Virus record (IMG/VR): IMGVR_UViG_3300031251_000003
Location: 94,107-158,106 of that record
Length of the DNA stretch: 64,000 nucleotides
DNA from: a virus
Direction: 5' to 3' (one strand)
The translations under genes and the position numbers were made by a program. The first letter of the stretch is position 1; each line of letters starts with the position of its first letter. The notes beneath the pieces are model-generated. The model ran no database searches and had not been told where the DNA came from. It saw nothing but the letters and a program-made list of their open reading frames with translations. Shown piece after piece: positions 17,502-28,529 of this stretch.

Positions 17502-17990
17502 CGCGGATTAGAGAAAAGGTCATCTCGTGAGTCTCATAAACTTTTCATGAGTTTACGAACACTAATAGTAGAGATGCCATACAAAGATCCCGAAAAACAG
17601 AAAGAAGCACAGGCTAGATTAAGTGCTGCTTATTATCAAAAGAATAAGAAAAAGATGAAAGTTCGTGCAAAGCAGTATACATACGAACATCGAGAACGTC
17701 TTAAGCAGTTTTTGATAGAGATAAAGTCTGCTCCATGTATGGACTGTGGAAATTCGTTTCCATCATGTGTAATGGACTTTGATCACCGTGAGGGTGAAGA
17801 GAAAAACGGTTGTGTGTCTGTAATGGTGAACCGCGCACTAAGCTTAGATAGAATTAAACAAGAAGTATCTAAGTGCGACCTAGTATGTGCGAACTGTCAT
17901 CGGATTCGAACCTCCACGCGGAAACAAGCCCTGGTGGGCTAGGGAGTCTCATAAACTCTCTCATGGTCAGTTCGATTCTGACTTCCGCTA
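17502..17990 (+). tRNA. Initiator-like tRNA-Met(CAT), interrupted by an HNH gene
   Basis: The 5' half (17502-about 17545: CGCGGAT, D-arm GAGA AAAGGTCA TCTC, anticodon loop CTCATAA) and 3' half (17943-17990: anticodon arm again, GTCAG TTCGATT CTGAC, TTCCGCT, A) flank an HNH gene. Joined, they form one tRNA with the C1-T72 mismatch seen in actinobacterial initiators. GAGTCTCATAAACT is duplicated at 17529 and 17944. Confidence 0.6.
17574..17942 (+). CDS. HNH endonuclease inserted in a tRNA gene
   Basis: 122 residues from the ATG at 17574. Basic N-terminal helix (MPYKDPEKQKEAQARLSAAY), CMDC knuckle, FDHREGEEK core with the catalytic His, and CDLVCANCHRIRT at the end: an HNH homing-type nuclease. 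Its stop codon (17940-17942) immediately precedes the second copy of the duplicated anticodon arm, so the gene and the 3' tRNA half are fused end to end. Two other HNH genes in the window end in the same way at their targets. An upstream in-frame extension would run through the 5' tRNA half and is not used. Confidence 0.8.
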   Translation: MPYKDPEKQKEAQARLSAAYYQKNKKKMKVRAKQYTYEHRERLKQFLIEIKSAPCMDCGNSFPSCVMDFDHREGEEKNGCVSVMVNRALSLDRIKQEVSKCDLVCANCHRIRTSTRKQALVG

Positions 17991-18075
17991 TTTCAAAATG
18001 CAACTAGGCCGACATAGTTGCGCCATATGGTGAAATGATCGGCATACAATTCTGTCTAACCTAGATAGGAGCGCA

Positions 18076-18131
18076 AATAATCATGAAGTAAGTTATAACC
18101 TTTGCTCGTATTTGAAGGTTAAATGATTATT
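18076..18131 (+). ncRNA. Long bipartite hairpin
   Basis: AATAATCAT (18076-18084)/ATGATTATT (18123-18131), 9 bp, and inside TAACCTT (18096)/AAGGTTA (18115), 7 bp, with an 11-nt asymmetric bulge. Confidence 0.5.
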
Positions 18132-18144
18132 CCGCATATACGTG

Positions 18145-18251
18145 AGACGAATGCCGCAGAAGCCGGAAACGTCTAGCAGGGTCAAGTCCGCGATAATCAG
18201 CTTGATGCATTCCCTGTGAATACAGCGAAAGCCGCCGCCGAGGTTGAGTCT
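18145..18251 (+). ncRNA. Structured RNA, GAAACGTCT/AGCGAAAGC family, copy C
   Basis: AGAC (18145)/GTCT (18248) outer stem, AGCC (18161)/GGTT (18242), GGAAACGTCT at 18165-18174, AGCGAAAGC at 18224-18232. The variable part folds as CAGGG-TCAAG...CTTGA...CCCTG. Confidence 0.55.
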
Positions 18252-18388
18252 GGATTACAGTGTATGTGATTATATGATATGATTTTAAGTTTGATTCATC
18301 TTGACTGTGGAGCCGAAAGCTGAGAAGCAGATCAAGAAACTAATGTAGATACATCGAGGGGTCGCGCATCTCTAACACGCGAATATTT

Positions 18389-18478
18389 GGATAGGTACTC
18401 AAGAGGCTTAAGAGGATGGTTTGCTAAACCATTAGAGGATGTCAAAGTCCTGCCAGAGTTCGAATCTCTGTCTATCCG
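18389..18478 (+). tRNA. tRNA-Ser(GCT)
   Basis: Class II. Acceptor GGATAGG/TCTATCC, anticodon stem ATGGT/ACCAT, loop TTGCTAA, long variable arm, T-arm CAGAG TTCGAAT CTCTG, discriminator G. Confidence 0.93.
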
Positions 18479-18549
18479 TGTAAGACGATCCGAAGACGAT
18501 GGGAACGTACGCGCATATCATGCGTGGTGACAGTCTATTCGAGGATCAG

Positions 18550-18622
18550 TGAATTGTAGCTCAACGGTTAGAGCGTTCCCTTCATATGGGAAAGGTAGTC
18601 GGTTCGACTCCGATCAATTCCA
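18550..18622 (+). tRNA. tRNA with CAT anticodon (Met or Ile2)
   Basis: Acceptor (T)GAATTG/CAATTC(C) with an unpaired 1-72, D-arm GCTC...GAGC, anticodon stem TTCCC/GGGAA, loop TTCATAT, T-arm GTCGG TTCGACT CCGAT, discriminator A. The anticodon stem lacks the GGG/CCC pairs of initiators, so elongator Met or lysidine-modified Ile is likelier. Confidence 0.85.
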
Positions 18623-18710
18623 TTAAAGAGGATGGTAGCCGATAGGTTGGCGTGGGTGTGCTGATTCGGTGAGATGGTTCGTCCTGCCTCATAAGACCAC
18701 GCGAGAATTT

Positions 18711-18797
18711 GGATATATGGCTGAGTGGATTAAAGCGCTAGTCTTGAAAACTAGTATGTGTGAAAGCGCATCCGGGGTTCGAATCCCTGTGTATCCG
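18711..18797 (+). tRNA. tRNA-Ser(TGA)
   Basis: Acceptor GGATATA/TGTATCC, anticodon stem CTAGT/ACTAG, loop CTTGAAA, variable arm TATGTGTGAAAGCGCATC, T-arm CGGGG TTCGAAT CCCTG, discriminator G. Confidence 0.92.
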
Positions 18798-18798
18798 T

Positions 18799-18873
18799 AG
18801 GATGGTTTACGACGTGGTAGTGTACGTTTGGCGCTTAAGTGCGTTCTGGCCGAGAATCAAAGGCATCCATCCT
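18799..18873 (+). ncRNA. tRNA-sized RNA with 7-bp acceptor-like stem but no T-arm
   Basis: AGGATGG (18799-18805)/CCATCCT (18867-18873). 75 nt, one base after tRNA-Ser. Inside, GCGC TTAA GTGC and GGCC...GGC can pair; no GTTCGA loop is present. Confidence 0.45.
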
Positions 18874-18880
18874 TGGGGTT

Positions 18881-18971
18881 AGAGACTTAGGATTCTGAGG
18901 CGAGCAACCTGAAATGGTAAGGAACGAATAACCGTTGCTGCGGCCTGTCGTTCAAACTGGATCAAGTCTCT
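18881..18971 (+). ncRNA. Self-closed inter-tRNA RNA
   Basis: AGAGACTT (18881-18888)/AAGTCTCT (18964-18971), 8 bp, around 75 nt; ends 6 nt before tRNA-Ser(GGA). Confidence 0.45.
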
Positions 18972-18977
18972 TCTTTT

Positions 18978-19064
18978 GGAAACGTGGCCGAGAGGATTAA
19001 GGCGCAGACCTGGAAAGTCTGTTGGTATTTACGTGCTACGCAGGTTCGAATCCTGTCGTTTCCG
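18978..19064 (+). tRNA. tRNA-Ser(GGA)
   Basis: Acceptor GGAAACG/CGTTTCC, anticodon stem CAGAC/GTCTG, loop CTGGAAA, variable arm, T-arm GCAGG TTCGAAT CCTGT, discriminator G. Confidence 0.93.
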
Positions 19065-19077
19065 CTCATGGGGTGAA

Positions 19078-19206
19078 AATGGAGAGTCGTCTAGTTCGAT
19101 TCTAGACTTGTGGATGGTTCCACGGCGGTTCAATTCCGCGTTATAAACTTGTGGCAGCAAATAGGGTAGCCCCCGCTCAGAGGGTTCAATTCCCTTACAC
19201 TCCATT
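19078..19206 (+). ncRNA. RNA with three T-arm-like hairpins
   Basis: AATGGAG (19078-19084)/CTCCATT (19200-19206) closes a 129-nt unit. Inside: GTCTAG-TTCGATT-CTAGAC (19089-19107), GTGGA-TGGT-TCCAC (19110-19123), GCGG-TTCAATT-CCGC (19125-19139), AGGG-TTCAATT-CCCT (19181-19195). Three loops follow the tRNA T-loop pattern. TTTATTT follows. Confidence 0.55.
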
Positions 19207-19237
19207 TATTTACAATTAGGATTACTAATTACTCTTG

Positions 19238-19243
19238 TATAAT
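19238..19243 (+). promoter_or_regulatory. -10 box of a leaderless promoter
   Basis: TATAAT, 7 nt before the ATG at 19251; the -35 region is poor. Confidence 0.5.
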
Positions 19244-19250
19244 AGATAGA

Positions 19251-19679
19251 ATGATTAATTCTAGAGTTTTAAATGAGAAAATAAAGGCCCAAAAGGAGAT
19301 TACGAATCAACGATTCGCTGATTCAGAAAAAGCTGTTGCAGCAGCTTTAGCTGCTCAAGAAAAGGCAACAGCGGCAGCATTTGCGGCTGCAAAGGAAGCT
19401 GTCATCAAGGCAGAAATTTCCCAACAGCGTGTCAATGAAAGTCAGAATGAATTCCGTGGCCAGCTTAAAGATCAAAATGCCGCTACGGAACGTAATATGA
19501 TGCCTCGTGCTGAAACAGAGTTATTGGTTAGAGAAATTCGAAGTAGTATTCAGGATCTTCAGAAGAGCCGAGATACCATCACAGGCAAGTCAATGGGGAT
19601 AGCTAACTTGACTAGCTCTGTCTATGCGTTTATCTTTGCTATTGCAGCTATTGCAGCTATCGCAGGCCACTTTCTCTAA
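19251..19679 (+). CDS. Coiled-coil protein with C-terminal membrane anchor
   Basis: 142 residues. Residues 5-110 form one long amphipathic helix, Ala/Lys/Glu-rich (KAVAAALAAQEKATAAAFAA), then IRSSIQDLQKSRD, and the last 20 residues (VYAFIFAIAAIAAIAGHFL) are a membrane helix. Tail-anchored with the coil facing the cytoplasm or envelope. Similar small proteins occur near phage lysis genes, but function is not established. No ribosome-binding site: the ATG follows a TATAAT by 7 nt, so it is probably leaderless. Confidence 0.65.
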   Translation: MINSRVLNEKIKAQKEITNQRFADSEKAVAAALAAQEKATAAAFAAAKEAVIKAEISQQRVNESQNEFRGQLKDQNAATERNMMPRAETELLVREIRSSIQDLQKSRDTITGKSMGIANLTSSVYAFIFAIAAIAAIAGHFL

Positions 19680-19684
19680 TATGC

Positions 19685-19690
19685 TATAAT
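19685..19690 (+). promoter_or_regulatory. Extended -10 promoter
   Basis: TGCTATAAT (TGn extension), 8 nt before the ATG at 19699. Confidence 0.55.
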
Positions 19691-19698
19691 GTGATCCC

Positions 19699-19851
19699 AT
19701 GAGGATCATTGGTGAACATTTCACTAGGCAGGGTAAGCCTAAGGTTACTTATGCGACCTTCCAGGGCGCTCAGAAGAAAGCACTGAAGCTTCATATGCGG
19801 GCTTATCAGTGTGGGTTTTGTGGCAAGTATTATCTAACGCATAAAGTTTAG
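19699..19851 (+). CDS. 50-residue zinc-finger protein
   Basis: MRIIGEHFTRQGKPKVTY..., ending AYQCGFCGKYYLTHKV: one C-x2-C knuckle followed by a His, like the short C2H-type modules common in actinophage small proteins. Basic, probably nucleic-acid binding. Leaderless (8 nt after an extended -10). The last base of its TAG is the first base of tRNA-Ser(CGA), so tRNA processing would cut at the gene's end. Confidence 0.6.
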   Translation: MRIIGEHFTRQGKPKVTYATFQGAQKKALKLHMRAYQCGFCGKYYLTHKV

Positions 19852-19933
19852 GAAGATATCCGAACGGTTAGGAAGCGCCCTCGAAAAGCGCCGGTGTTCA
19901 TAGCACTTGGGAGTTCGAATCTCCTGTCTTCCG
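19851..19933 (+). tRNA. tRNA-Ser(CGA)
   Basis: Acceptor GGAAGAT/GTCTTCC, anticodon stem GCGC/GCGC, loop CTCGAAA (31-39 unpaired), variable arm, T-arm GGGAG TTCGAAT CTCCT, discriminator G. Confidence 0.88.
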
Positions 19934-20055
19934 CTTATCGATAATCCGGGGATAGACCTAGGATTGTGACTGGATTAGGATCGCAACCTGATTACGGCAA
20001 TCTCATGATGGTCAGCTAGGGCCAGCACCTAGAATCGATTTCTAAAAGAACGACT

Positions 20056-20135
20056 CACGAAAGACTAGTGTAGGAAGGTAAGGGACGCAGGGTTGGGATG
20101 ACGATCTCGACGCGCCTATTTCTGTATCTTTCGTG
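20056..20135 (+). ncRNA. Self-closed inter-tRNA RNA with 9-bp stem
   Basis: CACGAAAGA (20056-20064)/TCTTTCGTG (20127-20135), perfect, enclosing 62 nt. Lies 14 nt before tRNA-Trp. Confidence 0.5.
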
Positions 20136-20149
20136 GGAAGGTTTAACAC

Positions 20150-20221
20150 ACGCCTTAGCCAATGGATAGGCAGATCGGCTCCAACCCGATCCAAAGGTGG
20201 GTTCGATTCCTACAAGGCGTG
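20150..20221 (+). tRNA. tRNA-Trp(CCA)
   Basis: Acceptor ACGCCTT/AAGGCGT, anticodon stem ATCGG/CCGAT, loop CTCCAAC, T-arm GTGGG TTCGATT CCTAC, discriminator G. Confidence 0.92.
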
Positions 20222-20243
20222 CTCAGTCTTATAAGGAGGATGT

Positions 20244-20576
20244 ATGCGAGTTCTATTACTGGTCTTGGTATTCTTGGTAATGGCAACGTCCGCGTTAGCA
20301 TCTCCACCCCGCCCTGCGAGGGCTTTCGATACCTTATGGTGTTGGCAATTGAAAGTTCAGTACACGCTCAAGCTGGGATGGCAAGCTAAGCATTGGAAAT
20401 GCAACCTAGGTAGTTGGGATCCGTATGCTAAAGAATGGACATATCGGGTCTGGGTTGATGAAGTAAAAGGTAGTCGTGTTTATCATGACTATGTGATCCT
20501 CTTTACAGACTTTGCTACTAAGAATTGGACACGAGTTCCCCATGGATATCCTGAAACAGGTGGTCTAAAGGGTTAA
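20244..20576 (+). CDS. Secreted protein of unknown function
   Basis: 110 residues. A signal peptide is clear: MRVLLLVLVFLVMATSALAS, cleavage probably after ALA. The mature part is Trp/Tyr/Lys-rich (DTLWCWQLKVQYTLKLGW, KHWKCNLGSWDPYAKEWTY) with two Cys that could pair, and beta-like. AGGAGG stands 5 nt before the ATG. The last 32 bases of the gene lie in a 186-bp tandem duplication, so a second copy of the tail, out of context, follows. May act in the envelope, e.g. exclusion; unproven. Confidence 0.65.
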   Translation: MRVLLLVLVFLVMATSALASPPRPARAFDTLWCWQLKVQYTLKLGWQAKHWKCNLGSWDPYAKEWTYRVWVDEVKGSRVYHDYVILFTDFATKNWTRVPHGYPETGGLKG

Positions 20577-20659
20577 AGTGTGTACATCTCTTTCACTGGA
20601 TTCCAATGGTGTTCATGATTACAGTGACTGTGGAGCGAGAGCTTAGCACCAAGCGCACT
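20577..20659 (+). ncRNA. Pseudoknot-like inter-tRNA RNA (duplicated)
   Basis: AGTGTG (20577)/CGCACT (20654) outer stem; CACT (20594)/AGTG (20623) crosses TGGTG (20607)/CACCA (20647); a GNRA hairpin AGCGAGAGCT lies at 20634. Repeated at +186. Confidence 0.4.
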
Positions 20660-20669
20660 CCTATTACTT

Positions 20670-20730
20670 GCACGGTTGGCTGATCGGTGTAAGCGCCACT
20701 CTTATAAGGTGGTTTAAGCTAGGTTCGACT
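20670..20730 (+). pseudogene. Truncated tRNA-Ile(TAT) copy
   Basis: Identical to the 5' 61 nt of the downstream tRNA-Ile but interrupted in the T-loop by the duplication junction, so it lacks the T-stem 3' strand and the acceptor 3' strand. Confidence 0.85.
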
Positions 20731-20855
20731 GATATCCTGAAACAGGTGGTCTAAAGGGTTAAAGTGTGTACATCTCTTTCACTGGATTCCAATGGTGTTC
20801 ATGATTACAGTGACTGTGGAGCGAGAGCTTAGCACCAAGCGCACTCCTATTACTT

Positions 20856-20929
20856 GCACGGTTGGCTGATCGGTGTAAGCGCCACTCTTATAAGGTGGTT
20901 TAAGCTAGGTTCGACTCCTAGACCGTGTA
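20856..20929 (+). tRNA. tRNA-Ile(TAT)
   Basis: Acceptor GCACGGT/ACCGTGT, anticodon stem CCACT/GGTGG, loop CTTATAA, T-arm CTAGG TTCGACT CCTAG, discriminator A. Reads AUA directly, without lysidine modification. Confidence 0.9.
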
Positions 20930-20936
20930 CTTGTGC

Positions 20937-20942
20937 TATAAT
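20937..20942 (+). promoter_or_regulatory. Extended -10 promoter of the sigma gene
   Basis: TGCTATAAT, then 6 nt to the GTG at 20949. It lies just after tRNA-Ile. Confidence 0.55.
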
Positions 20943-20948
20943 GTAGTC

Positions 20949-21443
20949 GTGAACGAAGAACGACAACAAGCTTGGAACCATTACTTCCAGACCGGCGATA
21001 GAGAACCAATCATCAAAGCCTACTGGAAGTCGATCAGTTACATTGCTCATGCTCGTTATCCGGCCTACGAAGAAGATATGTTCCAGGTCGGGCTAATGGG
21101 TTTGCTCAAGGCTATCAGTCGTATCGATGTCAATCGAGTCAAGTCTATTGATGCTTGGGTATGGTTGAATGTTCGTGGAGAAATGTTTAACGTAAAGCTT
21201 GCTAAGCCAACTCTTCCGATTGTTATCGAGTCAGAGAGGTTTGCTATCGAGGAAGACAAAGATCCAAAGATCTACATGCAACAGGCATTCGAGGTTCTAA
21301 ACGAGCGCGATAGGTATATTCTTGATAGTATTTACTATAAGAATAAGACACGTCAGGCTCTAGGCAAGGAGTTGGGCATTACCGGCATGAGAGTCGGCCA
21401 ACTAGAACAAAGAGCATTAAAGCAGTTGAGAGAAGTATTGTAA
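20949..21443 (+). CDS. Small sigma70-family sigma factor
   Basis: 164 residues from GTG 20949, leaderless. Region 2 is clear: YEEDMFQVGLMGLLKAISRI, then AWVWLNVRGEMFN (about residues 48-82), the core-binding and -10 recognition helices. Region 4 is at the end: LNERDRYILDSIYYKNKTRQ..., with a helix-turn-helix (GKELGITGMRVGQLEQRAL). Region 3 is short, as in SigF/FliA-type or phage sigma factors. It sits inside the tRNA array and its TAA touches tRNA-Ile(GAT). Probably redirects host RNA polymerase to phage promoters; which ones is unknown. Confidence 0.75.
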   Translation: MNEERQQAWNHYFQTGDREPIIKAYWKSISYIAHARYPAYEEDMFQVGLMGLLKAISRIDVNRVKSIDAWVWLNVRGEMFNVKLAKPTLPIVIESERFAIEEDKDPKIYMQQAFEVLNERDRYILDSIYYKNKTRQALGKELGITGMRVGQLEQRALKQLREVL

Positions 21444-21516
21444 GCACAGGTACTCAAGCGGTTAAGAGGCCACTCTGATAAGGTGGTATGCGAAAGTTCG
21501 AATCTTTCTCTGTGCA
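21444..21516 (+). tRNA. tRNA-Ile(GAT)
   Basis: Acceptor GCACAGG/TCTGTGC, anticodon stem CCACT/GGTGG, loop CTGATAA, T-arm GAAAG TTCGAAT CTTTC, discriminator A. Starts on the base after the sigma stop codon. Confidence 0.93.
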
Positions 21517-21604
21517 TAGGATCGGATTATTGATCCAAAGTAAGGCGACCAATATCGTGGCGCTAGCGAAAATCACAAAAACGACTTTACAGATATTTTC
21601 ATTT

Positions 21605-21679
21605 GTAGGTTCGAATCCTACTCCCCGCTCTTCACGCGGGGATGGCGAAATTGGCAAACGCGCTGGGCGATCAGCCCGG
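21605..21679 (+). tRNA. Circularly permuted tRNA-Leu-like gene
   Basis: Order is reversed: T-arm GTAGG TTCGAAT CCTAC (21605-21621), 3' acceptor TCCCCGC (21622-21628), 7-nt linker TCTTCAC, 5' acceptor GCGGGGA (21636-21642), Leu-type D-arm TGGCGAAATTGGCAAACGC, then a stem CTGGG/CCCGG (21663/21675). The two acceptor strands pair over 7 bp. The loop CGATCAG lacks T33, so the anticodon is not readable; CAG is the common Leu anticodon otherwise missing. Confidence 0.6.
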
Positions 21680-21769
21680 TTGTGAAATATCAATCAAGCG
21701 AAAGTTGTGTTAGCTAGAATAAGGCGCGTGATGCTAGCCTTTTATTTAAGGTTATATGCCTCTTATAGT

Positions 21770-21913
21770 CTAGTGAGGATCAAAGAAACGTCTCATGGTA
21801 TGGGCTTCCAAACCTATACTACGTGTAGCTCAAATGGGAGAGCCGCCGCCTGAAAAGCGGTGGGTTGGGGGTTCGAGTCCCTCCACGAAAGTAGCGAAAG
21901 CTTTGGGAGTTAG
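21770..21913 (+). ncRNA. Structured RNA, GAAACGTCT/AGCGAAAGC family, copy D with nested tRNA-Phe-like domain
   Basis: CTAG (21770)/TTAG (21910), CAAA (21781)/TTTG (21902), GAAACGTCT at 21785-21793, AGCGAAAGC at 21893-21901. Its variable region holds a tRNA-Phe-like cloverleaf (21819-21887; GCTC/GAGC D-arm, loop CTGAAAA, T-arm GGGGG TTCGAGT CCCTC) whose acceptor CTACGTG meets CACG-AAAG-TAG, split by four bases. Confidence 0.55.
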
Positions 21914-21945
21914 TCGAGTGAAAAGTGGTTAATTAGCCTTATTCC

Positions 21946-22268
21946 GGGAGCGTCCCGGTTTCGATGTGGAATTACGGTTCTGACTTCAATCCGTGGAAAC
22001 ATGATGGCCACGTAAAAAACATGTAACGTACTAAATGCAAACGCTAATATGAGCGTCCCGGACTTCATCCCTGATTGGGTAATGGATGAGTCCTTAGTTG
22101 CTGCTTAACTAGGAAACCTAATAAGCAGAGACTCTCAGGAAAGACTGAGTGGCGGAGGGGCGACTGCCCTCCATGCTTGACAAGTACGACCGTGATGGGT
22201 ATAATCTATGATTGTAAGCGTTAGTTCAACGATTACCGCAGACGCGAGTTCGACTCTCGCCGCTTCCA
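21946..22268 (+). ncRNA. ssrA: tmRNA
   Basis: 323 nt. 5' GGGAGCG pairs with 3' CGCTTCC, including the G3-T70 alanine identity pair; the T-arm GCGAG TTCGACT CTCGC and discriminator A close the tRNA-like domain, without encoded CCA. The tag frame starts at GCA (22037) and ends at TAA (22106-22108): 23 residues beginning ANANMS and ending DESLVAA, a ClpXP-type degron. It releases stalled ribosomes and marks the product for proteolysis. The tag is longer than, and unlike, the Streptomyces tag as I recall it. Confidence 0.93.
22178..22206 (+). promoter_or_regulatory. Sigma70 promoter inside the tmRNA gene
   Basis: TTGACA (22178-22183), 17 nt, TATAAT (22201-22206), between the tag frame and the 3' tRNA-like strand. 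Probably drives the gene at 22304. Confidence 0.7.
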
Positions 22269-22303
22269 TATGTACTATATTTCACTCCCTCCAAAGGAAG
22301 TTA

Positions 22304-22498
22304 ATGCACGATAGATCAGACTACCATATCCACAAGGATGAGCAAGGGAAACTACACAGGTGTTACCACAACTGCCGAAATATCTTACCCAACTGGCAGT
22401 TCTGGGTTGGTATGACGATGGGATTCCCTCTCGAACATCTGATTTGGCAACATCTTTGGCCCTTCTATTTAGTTAGTAATCTTTTGGGCCTTTCGTGA
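22304..22498 (+). CDS. Small Cys/His protein with membrane segment
   Basis: 64 residues from the ATG at 22304, with AAAGGAAG 4 nt upstream. MHDRSDYHIHKDEQGKLHRC then CYHNC-type Cys/His pairs, followed by a hydrophobic tail with many Trp (WQFWVGMTMGF, WPFYLVSNLLGLS). Could be a small membrane protein with a metal-binding head. An upstream in-frame extension runs through tmRNA and is ignored. Its TGA overlaps the first bases of tRNA-Cys. Confidence 0.6.
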   Translation: MHDRSDYHIHKDEQGKLHRCYHNCRNILPNWQFWVGMTMGFPLEHLIWQHLWPFYLVSNLLGLS

Positions 22499-22566
22499 CC
22501 TTGGCCGAGTGGTTTAGGTATGGCTCTGCAAAAGCTATTACATCAGTTCGAATCTGATAGGTCACT
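22495..22566 (+). tRNA. tRNA-Cys(GCA)
   Basis: Acceptor GTGACCT/AGGTCAC, anticodon stem TGGCT/AGCTA, loop CTGCAAA, T-arm ATCAG TTCGAAT CTGAT, discriminator T. Confidence 0.92.
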
Positions 22567-22595
22567 TGAAGTACAATGTTTCATACAGGATCTAC

Positions 22596-22666
22596 CTCTG
22601 GCTCATAGCTAGGCGGTTTAGATTTGAATGGTTGGAAAGGCTGGTTCGTAAACCTATAAACCAGAG
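22596..22666 (+). ncRNA. Self-closed stem-loop before the uS12 operon
   Basis: CTCTGG (22596)/CCAGAG (22661) encloses GGTTTA (22615)/TAAACC (22649). It ends right at the ribosome-binding site of the next gene and could be a 5' regulatory element. Confidence 0.45.
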
Positions 22667-22678
22667 ATGGAGAAGGTA

Positions 22679-22879
22679 ATGGCACAGTTGCAGAAGACAT
22701 TCATTGCACGATTCTACGATAGCTCACGACATCAATTTGCTACCAACAAGGTAGTCGCGGCAAACTTCGTGATGGCAGGAGAAGTTGCCCATGAGTGGGC
22801 AGAAGATCACTACCATGGACGTGCAACGAAGATCAAACTAGAATCCTCCAAAGGTGGAGAAGTTGTGTGTTCCGACTAA
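22679..22879 (+). CDS. Hypothetical 66-residue protein
   Basis: Start taken at ATG 22679 because GGAGAAGG precedes it; an ATG 12 nt earlier has no site. MAQLQKTFIARFYDSSRHQF..., a central helix (AANFVMAGEVAHEWAEDHY) and a basic strand end (GRATKIKLESSKGGEVVCSD). No known domain. Thirteen nt later the uS12 gene begins, so the two form an operon and the product may also work at the ribosome. Confidence 0.6.
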   Translation: MAQLQKTFIARFYDSSRHQFATNKVVAANFVMAGEVAHEWAEDHYHGRATKIKLESSKGGEVVCSD

Positions 22880-22891
22880 AAGGAAGGGTGT

Positions 22892-23293
22892 ATGGCGACA
22901 ATTAATCAGCTTGTAAGAAAGGGCCGAACGGCCAAGAGGAAGAAGGATAAGTCCCGTCATTTAAAGGGTAACCCTCAGGTTGCCGGTACTGTCTTGCGCG
23001 TCATGGTTCTCAACCCTTGTAAGCCGAATTCTGCCGAACGTCATTCGTGCAGGGTTAGACTCTCCAATGGCGGTGAGGTAACCTGTTACGTCCCTGGTCG
23101 TGGTATGAATATCCAGGAGCACAGCAGAGTCCTTGTTCGCGGCGGAATTGCTCCTGATCTCCGTGGAGTCAAGTACAAGGTTGTCCGTGGTAATCGTGAC
23201 TGTGCCGGGGTCAGTGATGAGATGGGTGGAAAGAAGAATTCCACACCAGTTCCTCGTAAGAATTCTCGTTCACTCTACGGAGTGAAGAAGTAG
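22892..23293 (+). CDS. rpsL: Ribosomal protein uS12 (phage copy)
   Basis: 133 residues, the full length of bacterial uS12. The N-terminal [12 protein letters not shown], the core [36 protein letters not shown] and the end SRSLYGVKK are unmistakable. uS12 lines the decoding site and sets accuracy. At the classical streptomycin positions (E. coli K42, K87, P90) this copy has C43, P88 and R91, while the methylthiolated Asp (D89 here) is kept. AGGAAGG lies just before the ATG. If incorporated, it should change accuracy or drug response of the host ribosome. The C-terminal insert [16 protein letters not shown] is unusual. Confidence 0.93.
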
Positions 23294-23303
23294 TGTTACA
23301 TCA

Positions 23304-23400
23304 CCTTATCGCTCGTTCCGATGCCTGTTGACGCAGGCTTAGGGAGCAAAACTGAAGCGTCAACTTCGTCTCAATATCGGCACAAGCCGAAGCGATAAGG
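23304..23400 (+). ncRNA. Long nested hairpin after uS12
   Basis: CCTTATCGCT (23304-23313)/AGCGATAAGG (23391-23400), CCGAT/ATCGG, and GTTGACGC (23327)/GCGTCAAC (23357), three stacked stems. Ends 5 nt before tRNA-Leu; might separate mRNA from tRNA. Confidence 0.55.
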
Positions 23401-23405
23401 ATCTT

Positions 23406-23489
23406 GCCCGCCTGGTGGAATGGTATACACGGTTGGCTTAAACCCAACTGCCTATAACGGGCTTGCGAGTTCGAATCTCGCGGTGGGTA
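23406..23489 (+). tRNA. tRNA-Leu(TAA)
   Basis: Acceptor GCCCGCC/GGTGGGT, anticodon stem GTTGG/CCAAC, loop CTTAAAC, variable arm, T-arm GCGAG TTCGAAT CTCGC, discriminator A. Confidence 0.92.
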
Positions 23490-23511
23490 CTTGGTAAGGA
23501 TGGTAGTTCAT

Positions 23512-23595
23512 ACCGGTGTGCTGGAATTAGGTATACAGGGGCGTCTCAAAAACGTCTGCTCAAAAGGCATGAGAGTTCGATTCTCTCCATCGGTA
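23512..23595 (+). tRNA. tRNA-Leu(CAA)
   Basis: Acceptor ACCGGTG/CATCGGT, anticodon stem GGCGT/ACGTC, loop CTCAAAA, variable arm, T-arm GAGAG TTCGATT CTCTC, discriminator A. Confidence 0.9.
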
Positions 23596-23894
23596 CTGTC
23601 GGTATCACGCTGGCGCTCTAAGGAGTCGAGGCCGAATATCGGGATGCATCTCGTGAGAGAAGGGGATCTTGACGCCCGGAGTTTTGTCTTTATGTCTGAA
23701 ACTCCTTTATGTTCAATAAACTAACTCATAACGGTACAGCACCTGAGTCAGTGGATGGAGTCGTCTAGTTCTCTAACAGTCAAATTGGCGTCCTTTCTAG
23801 ATAAGGTAATCCTCTAAGATTGAGATTGACTAGCGGCGAACTTGAGGTACGGAAGTACCTTAGCCGACGACATTTATGATAAACTGTAGTATTA
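23596..23894 (+). other. Non-coding spacer
   Basis: About 300 nt with no accepted gene. A hairpin AGGTACggaaGTACCT lies near 23844-23861. A short open frame at its start (to 23724) overlaps tRNA-Leu and has no start signal. TATGAT at about 23877 may be a -10 box for tRNA-Lys. Confidence 0.4.
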
Positions 23895-23967
23895 CCCTCC
23901 ATAGCTTCAACGGTAAAGCACGGGCCTTTTAAGCCATGAGTTCTGGGTTCGAATCCTAGTGGGGGGA
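23895..23967 (+). tRNA. tRNA-Lys(TTT)
   Basis: Acceptor CCCTCCA/TGGGGGG, loop CTTTTAA on a short stem GGC/GCC, T-arm CTGGG TTCGAAT CCTAG, discriminator A. Confidence 0.85.
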
Positions 23968-24044
23968 CTTGAGATCTAGGGTGTGGGTTATACGTCCACG
24001 TTTCCTTATAGGCGATGCGCTCGGTAGTGTCGTGATCTCTATTA

Positions 24045-24117
24045 GCCCTCTTAATTCAGTGGACAGAATGTTAGCCTTCGAAGCTAAACGTCGGGAGTTC
24101 GAATCTCTCAGAGGGTA
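24045..24117 (+). tRNA. tRNA-Arg(TCG)
   Basis: Acceptor GCCCTCT/AGAGGGT, anticodon stem TTAGC/GCTAA, loop CTTCGAA, T-arm GGGAG TTCGAAT CTCTC, discriminator A. Confidence 0.92.
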
Positions 24118-24131
24118 TCTAGAAAGAAGAC

Positions 24132-24160
24132 TTGACAACCAGACAACAATGAGGTATACT
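24132..24160 (+). promoter_or_regulatory. Leaderless promoter
   Basis: TTGACA (24132-24137), 17 nt, TATACT (24155-24160), then 6 nt to GTG 24167. Confidence 0.8.
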
Positions 24161-24166
24161 TAAGCC

Positions 24167-24385
24167 GTGGCTAAGAAACACAAGCCGAAGGAAAAGACTG
24201 AAACGAAGTTTTCGAAGTATCTTCCCGGCGAGAGTACATGGACGGGACGACGCAATAAGACGAGGCAGGATCTAATCCCAATGGGTCAACGTGATCGCGT
24301 TGAAACAGCACAGAAGATCAGATCCTTCTCGATGCAGCATAAGCCATCTTGCACTAAAGATTGGCTGAAGTTGCGAGTACATTGA
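24167..24385 (+). CDS. Small basic protein
   Basis: 72 residues with a GTG start, leaderless. Very Lys/Arg-rich: AKKHKPKEKTETKFSKYLPG, STWTGRRNKTRQDL, ending SCTKDWLKLRVH. No domain recognised. The charge suggests RNA or DNA binding; its place between tRNA-Arg and tRNA-Pro would suit a ribosome- or tRNA-linked role, but that is a guess. The consensus promoter supports it as a real gene. Confidence 0.6.
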   Translation: MAKKHKPKEKTETKFSKYLPGESTWTGRRNKTRQDLIPMGQRDRVETAQKIRSFSMQHKPSCTKDWLKLRVH

Positions 24386-24547
24386 TAACTTAGGTGGTGG
24401 TACCGGGAACCCCGATCCGGTGACGCGGAAGCGTATGGTGTAAGGGTTATGCACGCCACATGTACTAAGCCTTGGGATGCGATTCTCAAGGTACCCTTTC
24501 TAGCAGGGGATGTGCCTGGGCACCGCTCCAGAGCCAGCTAGATGTAA
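24386..24547 (+). other. Structured spacer
   Basis: GGTACC occurs at about 24399 and 24489 and can pair; a CTTGGG/CTCAAG hairpin mimics a T-arm but its loop is not canonical. TCTAGC/GCTAGA closes a second unit just before tRNA-Pro. No gene. Confidence 0.4.
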
Positions 24548-24621
24548 CTGGATGTAGGAAAGCTTGGTAATCCGTCTGCTTTGGGAGCAGAAGAGCGTGA
24601 GTTCGAATCTCACCGTCCAGA
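24548..24621 (+). tRNA. tRNA-Pro(TGG)
   Basis: Acceptor CTGGATG/CGTCCAG, anticodon stem TCTGC/GCAGA, loop TTTGGGA, T-arm GTGAG TTCGAAT CTCAC, discriminator A. Confidence 0.93.
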
Positions 24622-24843
24622 CTGAAGAGTTAGGAGGTTGGCCTAAAGGCAGCCACCCTTTAAAGAGTAGACTTACGTGAGCCGACCACGCTGAGCGAAA
24701 GCCTATTTGAGAGTCATGATCGCGCAAAGGTGACAATGATCCCGCGCCCGGAATGGCAACATGACGAAGACCAAGGAAACGACTTGGAAGAATAAACGGG
24801 TTAGTCTTTTGGCGTAACAGCACACTATCTCTTTTAGAATTGA

Positions 24844-24918
24844 CTGGATATAGCTCAGCCTGGTTAGAGTACGCCCTTGGGGAGGGTGAGGCCGCAAGTT
24901 CGAATCTTGCTATCCAGA
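24844..24918 (+). tRNA. tRNA-Pro(GGG)
   Basis: Acceptor CTGGATA/TATCCAG, anticodon stem CGCCC/GGGTG, loop TTGGGGA, T-arm GCAAG TTCGAAT CTTGC, discriminator A. Confidence 0.93.
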
Positions 24919-24921
24919 TAA

Positions 24922-24992
24922 CAGGATGTTGTATAGTGGTAATATACTTGCTTCGGGAGCATGAGTCAGAGGTTCGAGTCCTCTCATCCTGA
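24922..24992 (+). tRNA. tRNA-Pro(CGG)
   Basis: Acceptor CAGGATG/CATCCTG, loop TTCGGGA, T-arm AGAGG TTCGAGT CCTCT, discriminator A. Three nt after tRNA-Pro(GGG); the three Pro isoacceptors are clustered. Confidence 0.9.
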
Positions 24993-25048
24993 TATGTACT
25001 AGCTTTCTTATGGTGATCTCGCCCTACTAATGGGTAGGTGATAAATAA

Positions 25049-25216
25049 ATGAGACAACATATAGAAGGTGGATTACTTTCATTCTTAGGATTATGTGCTG
25101 CTGCTCTCTTCTTTGGTCTTCTCGTATTTGGAGGATCCATTAGCGATTGGCCATTAGAGGTAGCAGGCTTCTTTGCTCTAGCTATTGCGTTCGTTCTGGA
25201 ACGCTTAGGGTTGTAA
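25049..25216 (+). CDS. 55-residue double-helix membrane protein
   Basis: ATG 25049. MRQHIEGGLLSFLG, helix 1 LCAAALFFGLLVFGG, a short acidic turn SISDWPLEVAG, helix 2 FFALAIAFVLERLGL. A GGTAGG-like site lies about 9 nt upstream. It is one of several small membrane genes scattered among the tRNAs. Function unknown. Confidence 0.6.
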   Translation: MRQHIEGGLLSFLGLCAAALFFGLLVFGGSISDWPLEVAGFFALAIAFVLERLGL

Positions 25217-25451
25217 GACTCCGCTGGAATGCGGCGCATAGGGAGGTTCTTCGAGCCGTTGATCTATGTGATGGTGGAAACCGTGCCCGTTGAGCCGGGT
25301 AAAGGTACGACTAGCCATCGTATCGAAAGCGTAGGGCAGCGCGGTTGTAGCTGGTGGTGAGGGCGCAGCTATGGTATGGCTAAACGCCGAATCGTTCGAA
25401 GCGACAAGGCTTACGGGGTTGGTAATTCTCACGACTTGCCGATCCCGCCAA
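25217..25451 (+). other. Non-coding spacer
   Basis: 235 nt, G+C-rich and hairpin-rich (CCGC TGGAAT GCGG near the start; AGCTGGTGGTGAGGGCGCAGCT). No gene accepted on either strand. Confidence 0.4.
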
Positions 25452-25523
25452 TGCGGTGTAGTCTAATGGTAGTGACTTCCGGCTCTGAACCGGACAGTGT
25501 TGGTTCGAATCCAGCCTCCGCAG
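25452..25523 (+). tRNA. tRNA-Gln(CTG)
   Basis: Acceptor TGCGGTG/CTCCGCA (6-67 unpaired), anticodon stem TCCGG/CCGGA, loop CTCTGAA, T-arm GTTGG TTCGAAT CCAGC, discriminator G. Confidence 0.9.
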
Positions 25524-25674
25524 CTAACTCTAACGAGTAACAAGTGATTACAGCCGCTGATTGCCACGAGCGGTAAAGGATGGTCTTTTATGCCGGACGC
25601 TAGAATATGGCAGGTATAAAACTAAGTGTGTGGGTACCCGTAGCAATCACAGCCGCCGTTTTGTAATCCAGGAT

Positions 25675-25724
25675 GTGGATTGTCGAGGTATGGTATAGAC
25701 ACCACTTCTAGAAATCCACCATAC
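25675..25724 (+). ncRNA. Pseudoknot-like inter-tRNA RNA
   Basis: GTGGATT (25675)/AATCCAC (25713) and GTATG (25688)/CATAC (25720) pair in crossing order. Confidence 0.45.
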
Positions 25725-25775
25725 ATGCGCTACCTTGGAAAGGTGTAACGGTTCATAACCTGCCTTTCCTCCAAT

Positions 25776-25807
25776 CCCCACTTAGGCTGAAATATACCTA
25801 GGTGGGG
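25776..25807 (+). other. Strong 11-bp hairpin
   Basis: CCCCACTTAGG/CCTAGGTGGGG with a 10-nt loop; no T run follows. It ends 6 nt before tRNA-Tyr. Confidence 0.6.
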
Positions 25808-25813
25808 AACCAA

Positions 25814-25894
25814 GCATATGTTGAGCAAAGGCTAGCTCCGCTGTCTGTAAAACAGCCGTCTCCGACTATGTAGGTTCGAATCCTACCATATGCA
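25814..25894 (+). tRNA. tRNA-Tyr(GTA)
   Basis: Acceptor GCATATG/CATATGC, anticodon stem GCTGT/ACAGC, loop CTGTAAA, long variable arm, T-arm GTAGG TTCGAAT CCTAC, discriminator A. Confidence 0.94.
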
Positions 25895-25898
25895 CTGA

Positions 25899-25970
25899 TG
25901 GGAAATCGGTTAATGGTTAAACCAAGAGCCTTTGAAGCTCTGACTTTGGGTTCGAGTCCCAATTTCCCTA
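25899..25970 (+). tRNA. tRNA-Gln(TTG)
   Basis: Acceptor (T)GGGAAA/TTTCCC(T) with 1-72 unpaired, anticodon stem AGAGC/GCTCT, loop CTTTGAA, T-arm TTGGG TTCGAGT CCCAA, discriminator A. Confidence 0.9.
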
Positions 25971-26007
25971 TAGGTCAAGCTGGTGGGCCTGAAGCACTAG
26001 CATTTAC

Positions 26008-26081
26008 GGAAGCGTAGCTCAGTTGGTTAGAGCACCGGCCTGTCACGTCGGTAGTCGCGGGTTCGAGTCCCGTCGTTTCCG
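26008..26081 (+). tRNA. tRNA-Asp(GTC), first copy
   Basis: Acceptor GGAAGCG/CGTTTCC, anticodon stem CCGGC/GTCGG, loop CTGTCAC, T-arm GCGGG TTCGAGT CCCGT, discriminator G. Confidence 0.94.
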
Positions 26082-26111
26082 CTCTTTGGACGATGACCTG
26101 TGGAAGGATTT

Positions 26112-26282
26112 ATGCCAAACTTCCTAAAGGGTAAAAAGCTAGCGAGTAAGGCGAAGCTGGGGCACCACAAAATGCGTCAGTGGATGAAAGCTAGCGAATC
26201 AAGCTGCTGTAGGCATAACGGTAGTGTAATGAGCGAGTCTAACTCAAGTATTTTCGCTCCACCGTCCAAGGTTTTAAGTTGA
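26112..26282 (+). CDS. Possible small basic protein
   Basis: 56 residues from ATG 26112, with GGAAGGA just upstream. MPNFLKGKKLASKAKLGHHK, then WMKASESSCCRHNG and a Ser-rich tail. The second half overlaps a hairpin GAGCGA.../TTCGCTC, so the reading frame could be chance. Kept because of the ribosome-binding site and basic start. Confidence 0.35.
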   Translation: MPNFLKGKKLASKAKLGHHKMRQWMKASESSCCRHNGSVMSESNSSIFAPPSKVLS

Positions 26283-26307
26283 CCAATCATAATTTGTATG
26301 ATATACT
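26279..26307 (+). promoter_or_regulatory. Leaderless promoter
   Basis: TTGACC (26279-26284), 17 nt, TATACT (26302-26307), 5 nt to ATG 26313. Confidence 0.75.
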
Positions 26308-26312
26308 AAGTC

Positions 26313-26486
26313 ATGGTTACTAAAACGGACATAAAAACTCTTGAATTCGATGTAGATGGGAAGACAATCGAGCTTCAAGTTAAATGTGAGTTGGTTAGTA
26401 AAACTTGGAAACTTACGATTAATTGTAAGGATCCCGGTCGTGTTGAGTTTGAAACCATCATGAGTAAGATGGGTGTTATAAGATAA
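26313..26486 (+). CDS. Hypothetical 57-residue leaderless protein
   Basis: MVTKTDIKTLEFDVDGKTIE..., mostly beta strands (KTWKLTINCKDPGRVEFET), two Cys. No known domain. A consensus promoter ends 5 nt before the ATG and no ribosome-binding site is present, the leaderless pattern repeated in this genome. The stop lies 4 nt before the second tRNA-Asp. Confidence 0.6.
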   Translation: MVTKTDIKTLEFDVDGKTIELQVKCELVSKTWKLTINCKDPGRVEFETIMSKMGVIR

Positions 26487-26490
26487 ATAA

Positions 26491-26566
26491 CGGGGTGTGG
26501 TGTAGTCCGGTCTAACACGCTTGCCTGTCACGCAAGAGAACGAGGGTTCAAATCCCTTCATCCTGA
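26491..26566 (+). tRNA. tRNA-Asp(GTC), second copy
   Basis: Acceptor CGGGGTG/CATCCTG, anticodon stem CTTGC/GCAAG, loop CTGTCAC, T-arm GAGGG TTCAAAT CCCTT, discriminator A rather than the usual G73, so charging by AspRS may be weak. Confidence 0.82.
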
Positions 26567-26635
26567 TTGAAGATCGTCTAAAGTAGGACGCCTGGTTTAA
26601 CGGGAGATTCTAGAGGTTAACGTCTCTGGCTTCAA
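26567..26635 (+). ncRNA. Self-closed inter-tRNA RNA
   Basis: TTGAAG (26567)/CTTCAA (26630), starting on the base after tRNA-Asp; inside CGTC/GACG and GAGA/TCTC. Confidence 0.45.
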
Positions 26636-26642
26636 AATACTT

Positions 26643-26717
26643 GCCTCGTTGGTCTAGCGGTCTAGGATACCGGGTTTTCACCCCGCGTGAACAAGGGTTC
26701 GAATCCCTTACGAGGTA
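26643..26717 (+). tRNA. tRNA-Glu(TTC)
   Basis: Acceptor GCCTCGT/ACGAGGT, anticodon loop TTTTCAC on CGGG/CCCG, T-arm AAGGG TTCGAAT CCCTT, discriminator A. Confidence 0.9.
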
Positions 26718-27101
26718 CCTTAATAAAAATTAGACACCAGGGTTTCAGAGCAAAGCGGTAGCTCCGAGCGCTCTTATGAGATCTTGGGTGTTGTGACGGA
26801 AAAGTGCCTATCTTGCTTCCGCAAAGCGGTGAGCTAGGTATTGAACGTATAAGCGGCGAAAGCTCTGGGCAACCGGAGCCGGTAGCAGCCGAAGTAAAGG
26901 AATCGAAACCAGCGGCTTAGCGGCTGAGGGACTAGGTTCTGGGCGGGGGTTGTACCTCGTACAGTGGTGGCTCGACAGGGCAGCGGAAGTAGAAGAGAAA
27001 CCATATGACAAGGTAGCTTGCCTCTTCTTGCGGGATACCAAGACCCGCCAACACAGTCTAAATCTTGGGGATGTTTGGGTAAAACTGAGCATCCCCACCA
27101 A
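26718..27101 (+). other. Non-coding stretch with structured RNAs
   Basis: About 380 nt without a gene. ACACC (about 26737)/GGTGT closes a 55-nt unit; another GCGAAAGC hairpin lies near 26854; GGGGATG (27067)/CATCCCC (27090) ends 5 nt before the next tRNA-like unit. A minus-strand frame (26808-27101) is judged chance. Confidence 0.45.
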
Positions 27102-27177
27102 CCTTCAGTAGCTCAACGGTAGAGCGGTACGCTGTATGGAAGCGTTCGGGTTGCGAGTTCAATTCTCGTCTGAGGGT
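27102..27177 (+). tRNA. tRNA-like unit, anticodon apparently ATG (His)
   Basis: Acceptor CCTTCAG/CTGAGGG, D-arm GCTCAACGGTAGAGC, anticodon stem ACGCT/AGCGT with loop GTATGGA, T-arm GCGAG TTCAATT CTCGT. A34 and purine 32 are unusual, and there are two extra bases before the anticodon stem. It lacks the G-1/C73 of real tRNA-His. Confidence 0.5.
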
Positions 27178-27242
27178 CTTCTCGCTCGACACTCCCCTCC
27201 TAGGCCAATGATCTAGCCCGTGGGAAAGTGCGGCGAGTTCTA

Positions 27243-27315
27243 GCCAGCCTCGTATAACGGCATATTACACCGCACTTGTAATGCGGGTATTTCGGTTCAA
27301 TTCCGAAGGTTGGCT
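27243..27315 (+). tRNA. tRNA-Thr(TGT)
   Basis: Acceptor GCCAGCC/GGTTGGC, anticodon stem CCGCA/TGCGG, loop CTTGTAA, T-arm TTCGG TTCAATT CCGAA, discriminator T. Confidence 0.92.
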
Positions 27316-27420
27316 CTCGTGTGTGGAAATGAAACTATGTGACGAGCGCGTTCCGGCATAGAAGTAGTGGCCTTTCTGGGTTCGAGTCCCAGCACCGATT
27401 TATCAAAACAAGGAGGCACT

Positions 27421-27774
27421 TTGCTGAAATGGCTAAAGTTGCCGATACTAACTGTACTAATCCTAAGTAGTTTGGGAAATCTCAGGACAAACGGCGCTAA
27501 AGCTGTCTCAGTTCGTAGTCTCACTGTTTTAGAGACTGCCTATTGTCTTAGGGGAACTATGGCCAACGGCCACTATGTTCACCCTGGGGCAATAGCGGTT
27601 GATCCAAGAGTTATTCCTATGGGATCTCGTATCTTTGTCCCCGGCTATGGTTGGGGAACAGCAGAGGATACGGGTGGTGCAATTATCGGCTATCATATCG
27701 ATGTATGGATGAGCGATTGCTCACAAGCTATGAGATCTACCCGATGGAATGTACGGATCAAAATTTCACGTTGA
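27421..27774 (+). CDS. Secreted 3D-domain protein (cell-wall lytic/RlpA-like)
   Basis: 117 residues from TTG 27421, chosen because AGGAGG sits 4 nt upstream; longer in-frame starts run into a tRNA fragment. A signal peptide or anchor (LKWLKLPILTVLILSSLG) is followed by the 3D fold: TAYCLRGTMANGHYVHPGAI, PMGSRIFVPGYGWGTAEDTG, then HIDVWMSDCSQA. The Asp residues of the family (AVDP, EDTG, DVW) are all there. 3D domains cut or bind peptidoglycan, so a role in lysis or entry is likely. The 3' end overlaps an HNH remnant in another frame. Confidence 0.75.
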   Translation: MLKWLKLPILTVLILSSLGNLRTNGAKAVSVRSLTVLETAYCLRGTMANGHYVHPGAIAVDPRVIPMGSRIFVPGYGWGTAEDTGGAIIGYHIDVWMSDCSQAMRSTRWNVRIKISR

Positions 27775-27911
27775 GTGGGAAGGTAACAAATATAGGTGGC
27801 ATTTGGGGCCAAATGGCTATGCCGAAATTACTAGAAGAGTTAGCTAAATGTGATGTTGTTTGTGCTAACTGCCATCTTCGTAGACATCATTCCGCGTTGT
27901 TCGTAGACTAA
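27744..27911 (+). pseudogene. HNH endonuclease remnant ending in tRNA-His
   Basis: 55 residues: MECTDQNFTLSGKVTNIGG..., then LLEELAKCDVVCANCHLRRH, the C-terminal part of the HNH family seen at 17574. The N-terminal CxxC half and the DH core are missing, so it is probably inactive. Its stop (TAG, 27909-27911) lies inside tRNA-His, again an HNH gene terminating in its target. Confidence 0.7.
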
Positions 27912-27970
27912 TTGGTTAAGTCCCTACCCTGTGAAGGTAGCCTATACGGGTTCGAATCCCGCCGAACAAC
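27896..27970 (+). tRNA. tRNA-His(GTG)
   Basis: G-1 (27896) opposite C73 (27970), the His hallmark. Acceptor TTGTTCG/CGAACAA, anticodon stem CTACC/GGTAG, loop CTGTGAA, T-arm CGGG TTCGAAT CCCG. Confidence 0.92.
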
Positions 27971-27973
27971 TCA

Positions 27974-28033
27974 AGGGGATCTCCTTGATATGCCGTGGTT
28001 CGTCGGTTACGAATTCTTGGAGCAAGATCCCCT
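27974..28033 (+). ncRNA. Self-closed inter-tRNA RNA, 9-bp stem
   Basis: AGGGGATCT (27974)/AGATCCCCT (28025), 60 nt, ending 4 nt before the next tRNA. Confidence 0.5.
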
Positions 28034-28037
28034 CCAT

Positions 28038-28151
28038 GCAGCAGTCGCTTAAGTGGGAAAGCACCTACTGATAAAGAAGTCTCCATGGTTATAGACCGGT
28101 CAAACGGTGGAGATTTGTAGGAGATCATTGGTTCGAATCCAGTCTGTTGTT
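28038..28151 (+). tRNA. tRNA-Ile(GAT) with 43-nt insertion in the anticodon loop
   Basis: Acceptor GCAGCAG/CTGTTGT, D-arm GCTT...AGC, T-arm TTGG TTCGAAT CCAG, discriminator T. The anticodon loop begins CTGATAA (GAT at 28070-28072), then 43 extra bases (28075-28117) with a hairpin TCTCCA.../TGGAGA come before the stem strand TAGG (28118). The insertion follows position 38, close to the canonical intron site after position 37. Confidence 0.6.
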
Positions 28152-28155
28152 CTTT

Positions 28156-28230
28156 GAGAGATTAGCATAATTGGACTAATGTTCCAGGTTGTGATCCTGG
28201 CTAATTTCGGTTCGAATCCGAAATCTCTCT
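28156..28230 (+). tRNA. tRNA with GTG anticodon (His-like, lacks G-1/C73)
   Basis: Acceptor GAGAGAT/ATCTCTC, anticodon stem CCAGG/CCTGG, loop TTGTGAT, T-arm TTCGG TTCGAAT CCGAA. Position 73 is T and -1 is T, so histidyl-tRNA synthetase may not accept it. Confidence 0.8.
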
Positions 28231-28280
28231 TGCCTTGATAACCCCAGTCGCTTCGGCGGCTCCGAGATAGGCACGGAATG

Positions 28281-28321
28281 AAACAGACCATTGGGAGCAG
28301 ATGGCTTTAGCCGATCTGTTT
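28281..28321 (+). ncRNA. Short self-closed hairpin
   Basis: AAACAGA (28281)/TCTGTTT (28315), ending 2 nt before tRNA-Thr. Confidence 0.45.
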
Positions 28322-28323
28322 TC

Positions 28324-28396
28324 GCCTGAGTAGTGATAACGGTCAGCACACATCCTTGGTAAGGATGGAGTTTGGGTTCGATTCCCAGCTTGGGCT
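28324..28396 (+). tRNA. tRNA-Thr(GGT)
   Basis: Acceptor GCCTGAG/CTTGGGC, anticodon stem CATCC/GGATG, loop TTGGTAA, T-arm TTGGG TTCGATT CCCAG, discriminator T. Confidence 0.92.
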
Positions 28397-28397
28397 T

Positions 28398-28529
28398 ATG
28401 AGTAACTTCAAACGCAAGAAATCAAGACGTTCGGTAAAGTGTACCATGTGTACACCATTTAGATGGTTAGGAAATACCAAAGAACGGCGACCCTTTAAAG
28501 ACCGTCGCCAACTTCAGAAGGAGGAATAG
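28398..28529 (+). CDS. 43-residue basic CxxC protein
   Basis: MSNFKRKKSRRSVKCTMC then TPFRWLGNTKERRPFKDRRQ. Strongly basic with one CxxC; I recall similar tiny proteins in actinophages, without known function. It begins 1 nt after tRNA-Thr and its last codons contain the AAGGAGG of the VWA gene, so it is the first gene of a two-gene operon. Confidence 0.6.
   Translation: MSNFKRKKSRRSVKCTMCTPFRWLGNTKERRPFKDRRQLQKEE

Follow-up and report, generated by a model that had tools for sequence, protein, structure and literature searches.

A 64,000-nucleotide stretch of viral DNA (the window), the last 64 kb of the 158,106-bp IMG/VR virus record G000, encodes a 133-aa ribosomal protein uS12 at positions 22892-23293 (+). 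We put the chances at about even that newly made host 30S subunits take up this phage uS12, which would yield hybrid ribosomes with a decoding center, and probably a handling of stalled ribosomes with tmRNA, that are tuned for the phage. The basis for this reading is the gene itself, its changes, the selection acting on it, the retained decoding motifs, the tmRNA neighborhood, and the recurrence of the gene in unrelated phages. The gene starts with ATG, is preceded by AAGGAAGG as the ribosome-binding site, and is the sole uS12 copy on the record. An earlier note, made from the letters of the window, had identified it as uS12, and this was borne out by alignment to cellular uS12 and by the match to the Pfam Ribosom_S12_S23 profile (PF00164; E 2.7e-25; 88.7 bits vs. 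a cut-off of 22.3). Identity to bacterial uS12 is about 55-60%, and the best Foldseek matches of the modeled protein are all uS12 chains of ribosomes (probability 1.00), the model being a modest one (pLDDT 69, TM-score about 0.6).

In an ungapped alignment with cellular uS12, positions 43, 88, and 91 of the window protein (E. coli K42, K87, and P90) are C, P, and R, while the methylthiolation site D89 is retained, exactly as the earlier note had read them; the PNSA decoding motif is also kept. The K43C codon lies at 23018-23020 (+) and the P91R codon at 23162-23164 (+). The same loop also carries R86I and V87A (R86I/V87A/K88P codons, 23147-23155, +) and now reads I86-A87-P88-D89-L90-R91. In addition, 19 residues separate D103 from the conserved R122, vs. 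7 in cellular uS12, and this extended C-terminal loop corresponds approximately to codons 23216-23251 (+). R86I, V87A, and the longer loop were absent from the earlier note, as were the ten-member family and the tmRNA neighborhood discussed below.

The cellular panel contained 109 distinct uS12s from Pseudomonadota, Bacillota, Bacteroidota, Actinomycetota, Thermus, and one plastid; Pseudomonadota dominate it and three sequences are actinobacterial. K43, K44, R86, V87, D89, P91, and G92 are invariant (109/109), position 88 is K in 106 sequences and R in 3, and the D103-R122 loop has 7 residues in all 106 proteins measured. Since K43 and P91 are invariant and K88 is replaced at most by R, the changes of the window uS12 are not ordinary variation. 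The phage protein shares with bacterial uS12 (RpsL, PF00164) its full-length homology, the OB-fold core, PNSA/H77/D89, and the C-terminal RSxYG tail. Unlike the bacterial gene, the phage gene stands alone, without uS7 or EF-G, and its product has K43C, R86I, V87A, K88P, P91R, and the 19-aa loop.

The position among tRNAs and a tmRNA, also reported by the earlier note, was confirmed, with an array of 46 tRNA genes (12170-30748, +) surrounding uS12 and the one tmRNA (21946-22268, +; tag ANANMSVPDFIPDWVMDESLVAA). Between the last two lie a small ORF (22304-22498, +), tRNA-Cys (22495-22566, +), and, directly upstream of uS12, a 66-aa ORF of unassigned function (22679-22879, +) that has no PHROG or INPHARED match and for which no family was found. 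Downstream, tRNA-Leu(taa) and tRNA-Leu(caa) (23406-23596, +) have the same order in two relatives of the phage, G001 and G002. The "other translation genes" that the earlier note placed nearby were not recovered; beyond the tRNAs and tmRNA, the scanned ORFs, apart from unknowns, encode a sigma factor, a polynucleotide-kinase-like protein, and a VWA protein. A divergent sigma-70-like factor is encoded within the array at 20925-21443 (+), with a G001 partner only 43% identical. Coding genes of unknown function also lie inside it at 14030-14970 and 15037-15393 (+), at 52-65% in G001, the second being present in G002 as well. tRNA-His calls with anticodon ATG, at 27102-27178 in the window and at L099 17927-18001 in G002, stand beside normal GTG ones and are either unusual or mis-called.

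Scanning 2.9 million IMG/VR viral contigs by motif and by alignment, where the motif search did not use position 88 and the final scan added nothing new, brought the stand-alone phage uS12 genes to ten: those of the window and G001, and eight more (L113/L130, L114/L119, L122, L127, L128, L129, L132, and L134). No uS7 is found on any of the ten contigs. Structural phage genes are present on G006 (tail sheath), G007 (portal and major head protein), and G009 (baseplate wedge), and phage-type replication, transcription, or head-protein-like genes on G008, G010, G011, G012, and G013. The uS12 of L115/L135 was set aside as host, not phage. PHROGs contain no match to the uS12 family, and in 50,697 phage records tblastn recovered only bacterial uS12, with adjoining uS7 in the records inspected. 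The INPHARED uS12 records OR848167, OR850101, MT839901, MT836617, MT836236, and CAKLQH020000044, all labeled as phages, are bacterial str-operon fragments (uS12 then uS7), that is, database contamination.

K88P is found in half of the phage proteins (window, G001, L114, L122, and L127), and K43 and P91 are each changed in three. For example, L114 has R43/S86/P88/G91 and L127 has R43/I83/N86/R87/P88/G91. All ten have kept K44, PNSA (45-48), H77, D89, L90, and G92, as well as the SRSxYG/GRSxYG tail. The D103-R122 loop has 13-23 residues in nine of the ten and marks the phage family better than the drug-site residues do. A tree built without the trait columns, with long branches, places the phage uS12s on one side of a branch of modest support (79/81), and the minimum changes on it are at least two for K88P and at least three each for K43 and P91. 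The concentration of changes in the accuracy loop relative to the remaining protein is only weak (Fisher p 0.11 for the window, 0.04 for L114, and 0.04 for L127), so we make no claim of positive selection. The family suggests that host ribosomes may be retuned. In a broader proposal, a tentative one that we hold at somewhat below even, large phages from several lineages would share a separate viral uS12 family that has a C-terminal loop of its own, is often coupled to tmRNA, and enters new host 30S subunits. The resulting infection-specific ribosomes would have altered decoding and rescue, which would amount to a change in the ribosomal decoding center specified by a virus.

tmRNA genes were found on six contigs and were not detected on the remaining uS12 contigs, most of which are fragments. 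The start of uS12 lies downstream of tmRNA on the same strand by 623 nt in G000, 209 nt in G001, 513 nt in G006, and 200 nt in G011, and these four have what we propose to call a tmRNA-uS12 gene pair (uS12 <1 kb downstream, same strand); G010, with tmRNA 62 kb from uS12, does not. With G000 and G001 counted once, the two genes are within 1 kb in three of the four independent lineages that have both, for which p is about 1.5e-6 at random positions and 8e-5 if both are confined to the tRNA array. The 13 kb surrounding the pair in G011 contain no tRNA, and a terminator-like hairpin comes after uS12 there. No SmpB gene is present on any contig, so host SmpB would be used. The title of one study (Holberger and Hayes 2009) reports a modulating effect of S12 on A-site mRNA cleavage and on tmRNA activity, and the structural work reviewed elsewhere contains no S12-SmpB contact (PMC3929946, PMC3989591); the putative partnership with tmRNA is thus drawn mainly from gene neighborhood. 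The tmRNA of G010 (L139 7569-7907) has a very short predicted tag, AEEQLQEAA, and that at L129 11716-12069 (-) scored 95.5 bits with Rfam and was missed by ARAGORN.

From these observations we infer expression of the phage uS12, its incorporation into ribosomes, an effect on accuracy, and a partnership with tmRNA. The protein would be made during infection and would enter newly assembling host 30S subunits to give hybrid ribosomes, where phage tmRNA and phage uS12 together may tune the handling of stalled ribosomes for phage protein synthesis. uS12 is a core decoding-center protein deep in the 30S subunit, unlike the easily exchanged proteins that viruses usually carry, so it would be taken up only by new subunits and its entry during assembly is likely. 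S12 also helps to nucleate, and speeds, early 30S assembly (PMC10296100). The retained decoding residues, together with purifying selection, speak for a function in the ribosome.

uS12 is also known to act as an RNA chaperone, on phage T4 introns and on nascent rRNA (PMC10931766, PMC10296100), and the phage protein could instead act outside the ribosome in folding tmRNA, tRNAs, or nascent pre-16S rRNA, leaving the decoding residues free to drift. The location of uS12 within tRNA/tmRNA arrays in most of the ten phages and the changed decoding positions in several of them are compatible with such a role. However, a chaperone would need neither PNSA, H77, and D89, which are unchanged in all ten, nor the drug/accuracy loop, which is kept whole in five. 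Moreover, tRNAs are few or absent around uS12 in G008, G010, and G011, and no group I intron was found within window positions 8000-40000. We consider this role unlikely.

The tmRNA neighborhood, the tRNA arrays, and the polynucleotide-kinase-like gene would also fit the repair of an attack on translation, in which uS12 shields the decoding center from a host toxin or nuclease acting at the A site in abortive infection, with stalled ribosomes being cleared by tmRNA. G007, with similar loop changes, has an RF-1/GGQ-domain gene and no detected tmRNA, which agrees with such counter-defense. No matching defense system was identified, however, and the scenario is purely inferential; we regard it as quite improbable. 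An RF-1/GGQ-domain peptide release factor (phrog_3122) is encoded at L119 9277-9648 (-) of IMGVR_UViG_3300045141_000199, the phage with the R43/S86/P88/G91 uS12.

For the hybrid ribosomes that we favor, the changed loop I86-A87-P88-D89-L90-R91 together with C43 would probably restrict decoding further and loosen the contacts with streptomycin. We know of no reported effect on accuracy of K88P, K43C, or their combination. Bacterial alleles indicate that the window uS12 probably restricts decoding: P90R confers streptomycin dependence in Klebsiella (PMC4182516), and P90Q is an error-restrictive change (PMC5774297). Streptomycin-resistant, streptomycin-dependent, and error-restrictive rpsL alleles affect the same residues as C43, P88, and R91, but the phage changes are natural, fixed, and several together, and K88P and K43C are absent from the alleles in these two papers.

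The earlier note had proposed that the phage swaps uS12 into new ribosomes during infection, which is still the best reading, and thereby gains drug tolerance or a change in accuracy. The change in accuracy is in line with the P90R and P90Q alleles, while drug tolerance has fared poorly as a purpose. Bacterial changes at K43, K88, and P91, the classical positions for streptomycin, lead to resistance or dependence, and altered residues there could let infected cells translate in the presence of streptomycin or other aminoglycosides in soil. Nevertheless, all three are canonical in five of the ten phage uS12s, three of these lying beside tRNA arrays or tmRNA, and with half of the family unaltered, drug tolerance is unlikely as the general purpose. 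G001 differs only at K88 among the three, and bacterial P90R brings dependence with slow growth rather than simple resistance. As the explanation of the window gene, we rate drug tolerance very unlikely.

G001 (IMGVR_UViG_3300004463_000262, 72 kb) is collinear with the window phage and carries uS12 at the same place, 69% identical and with K43 and P91 kept. Its order is tmRNA, a 66-aa ORF (45% identical to that of the window, and directly upstream of uS12), an overlapping uS12 with a TTG start, a 59-aa ORF starting in the uS12 stop codon, tRNA-Cys, and tRNA-Leu. The window order differs in that the homolog of the 59-aa ORF, the third gene of the G001 uS12 unit (22304-22498 in the window), and tRNA-Cys precede the 66-aa ORF and uS12. 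G002 (71 kb, portal 70%) is also collinear, with a full tRNA array and tmRNA, and has no uS12, so part of this phage group has either acquired the gene or lost it. The RtcB of G001 is absent from G000. Between the window and G001 uS12s, pN is 0.255 and pS 0.733, for a dN/dS of about 0.11 with dS near saturation. By this measure uS12 is under purifying selection, less tight than that on portal or terminase. An accidental, functionless host gene in neutral decay would account for the long branch (0.5) and the substitutions at 19 of 73 conserved positions in the window protein, but is barely credible, and was already disfavored, given the intact frame, this dN/dS, a phage-like GC3 of 0.50, the place conserved in two phages at 69% identity, and the phage-specific loop common to nine of the ten.

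That viral ribosomal proteins exist for other families, as the earlier note stated, is documented. Virus-encoded bS21, bL12, bL9, bL31, and bL33 are reported in the main text of Mizuno 2019 (PMC6375957), where bS21 and bL12 of viral origin enter 70S ribosomes when expressed; PhiMa05 has bS1, bL21, bL27, bL33, uL11, and uL1 (PMC13157829), and huge phages have S4, S1, S21, and L7/L12 (PMC7162821). S12/uS12 is absent from that main text, the full list of 14 being in a figure and supplement, and from the six PhiMa05 proteins. We found no report of a phage uS12 in cultured phages or in the accessible literature, a search that most subscription papers lay outside, and no description of changed active-site residues or tmRNA adjacency for the known viral ribosomal proteins. 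Like these, the window uS12 comes from a single ribosomal protein gene on the contig of a tailed phage and is presumed to take the place of the host protein; uS12 differs from them in being universal and located in the decoding center. The viral ribosomal proteins known so far are mostly peripheral and easily exchanged. If our reading is true, a viral version of a universal decoding-center protein, altered where the sampled bacteria never vary, would mean that phages can edit how accurately the host ribosome decodes and how it is rescued. The phage uS12 makes specialized ribosomes during infection a testable idea, links phage tmRNA to a putative partner gene, and offers natural variants, K88P among them, that seem not to have come out of laboratory selections.

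The window also encodes baseplate, portal, and terminase proteins, DNA polymerase III alpha, UvsX, primase, and ribonucleotide reductase. Host contamination or misassembly was rejected as the source of its uS12, and a virus-genome origin is supported, by these hallmark genes, with phage genes throughout, by the lack of uS7, and by G001, with the same gene in the same place and context. The portal is 39% identical to those of Gordonia Pupper, Rhodococcus E3, and cluster C mycobacteriophages, and since it points to Mycobacterium/Gordonia/Rhodococcus-type myophages, the host is probably actinobacterial. A Streptomyces host was rejected on the same grounds, megablast having given only tRNA-sized matches to Stanwilliamsviridae. 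The cluster C/Bxz1-type, Rhodococcus E3, and Gordonia Pupper myophages resemble this phage in their genomes of about 155 kb with a tRNA array and tmRNA; unlike it, they have no uS12, the INPHARED uS12s being host str-operon fragments only.

Finally, an exact sigma-70-type promoter sequence, TTGACA-N17-TATAAT, lies within the 3' part of the tmRNA gene (22177-22205, +) and points at uS12. Exact TTGACA-N16-18-TATAAT occurs six times in G000 (158 kb) and four times in G001, with none in each of 20 shuffles. From these motifs, the phage seems to use the host housekeeping RNA polymerase at promoters of the tRNA array. The six copies in G000 are at window positions 7297, 14974, 22177, and 30281 (+), with two more on the minus strand outside the window, and the four in the window are spaced at 7-8 kb across the tRNA array.
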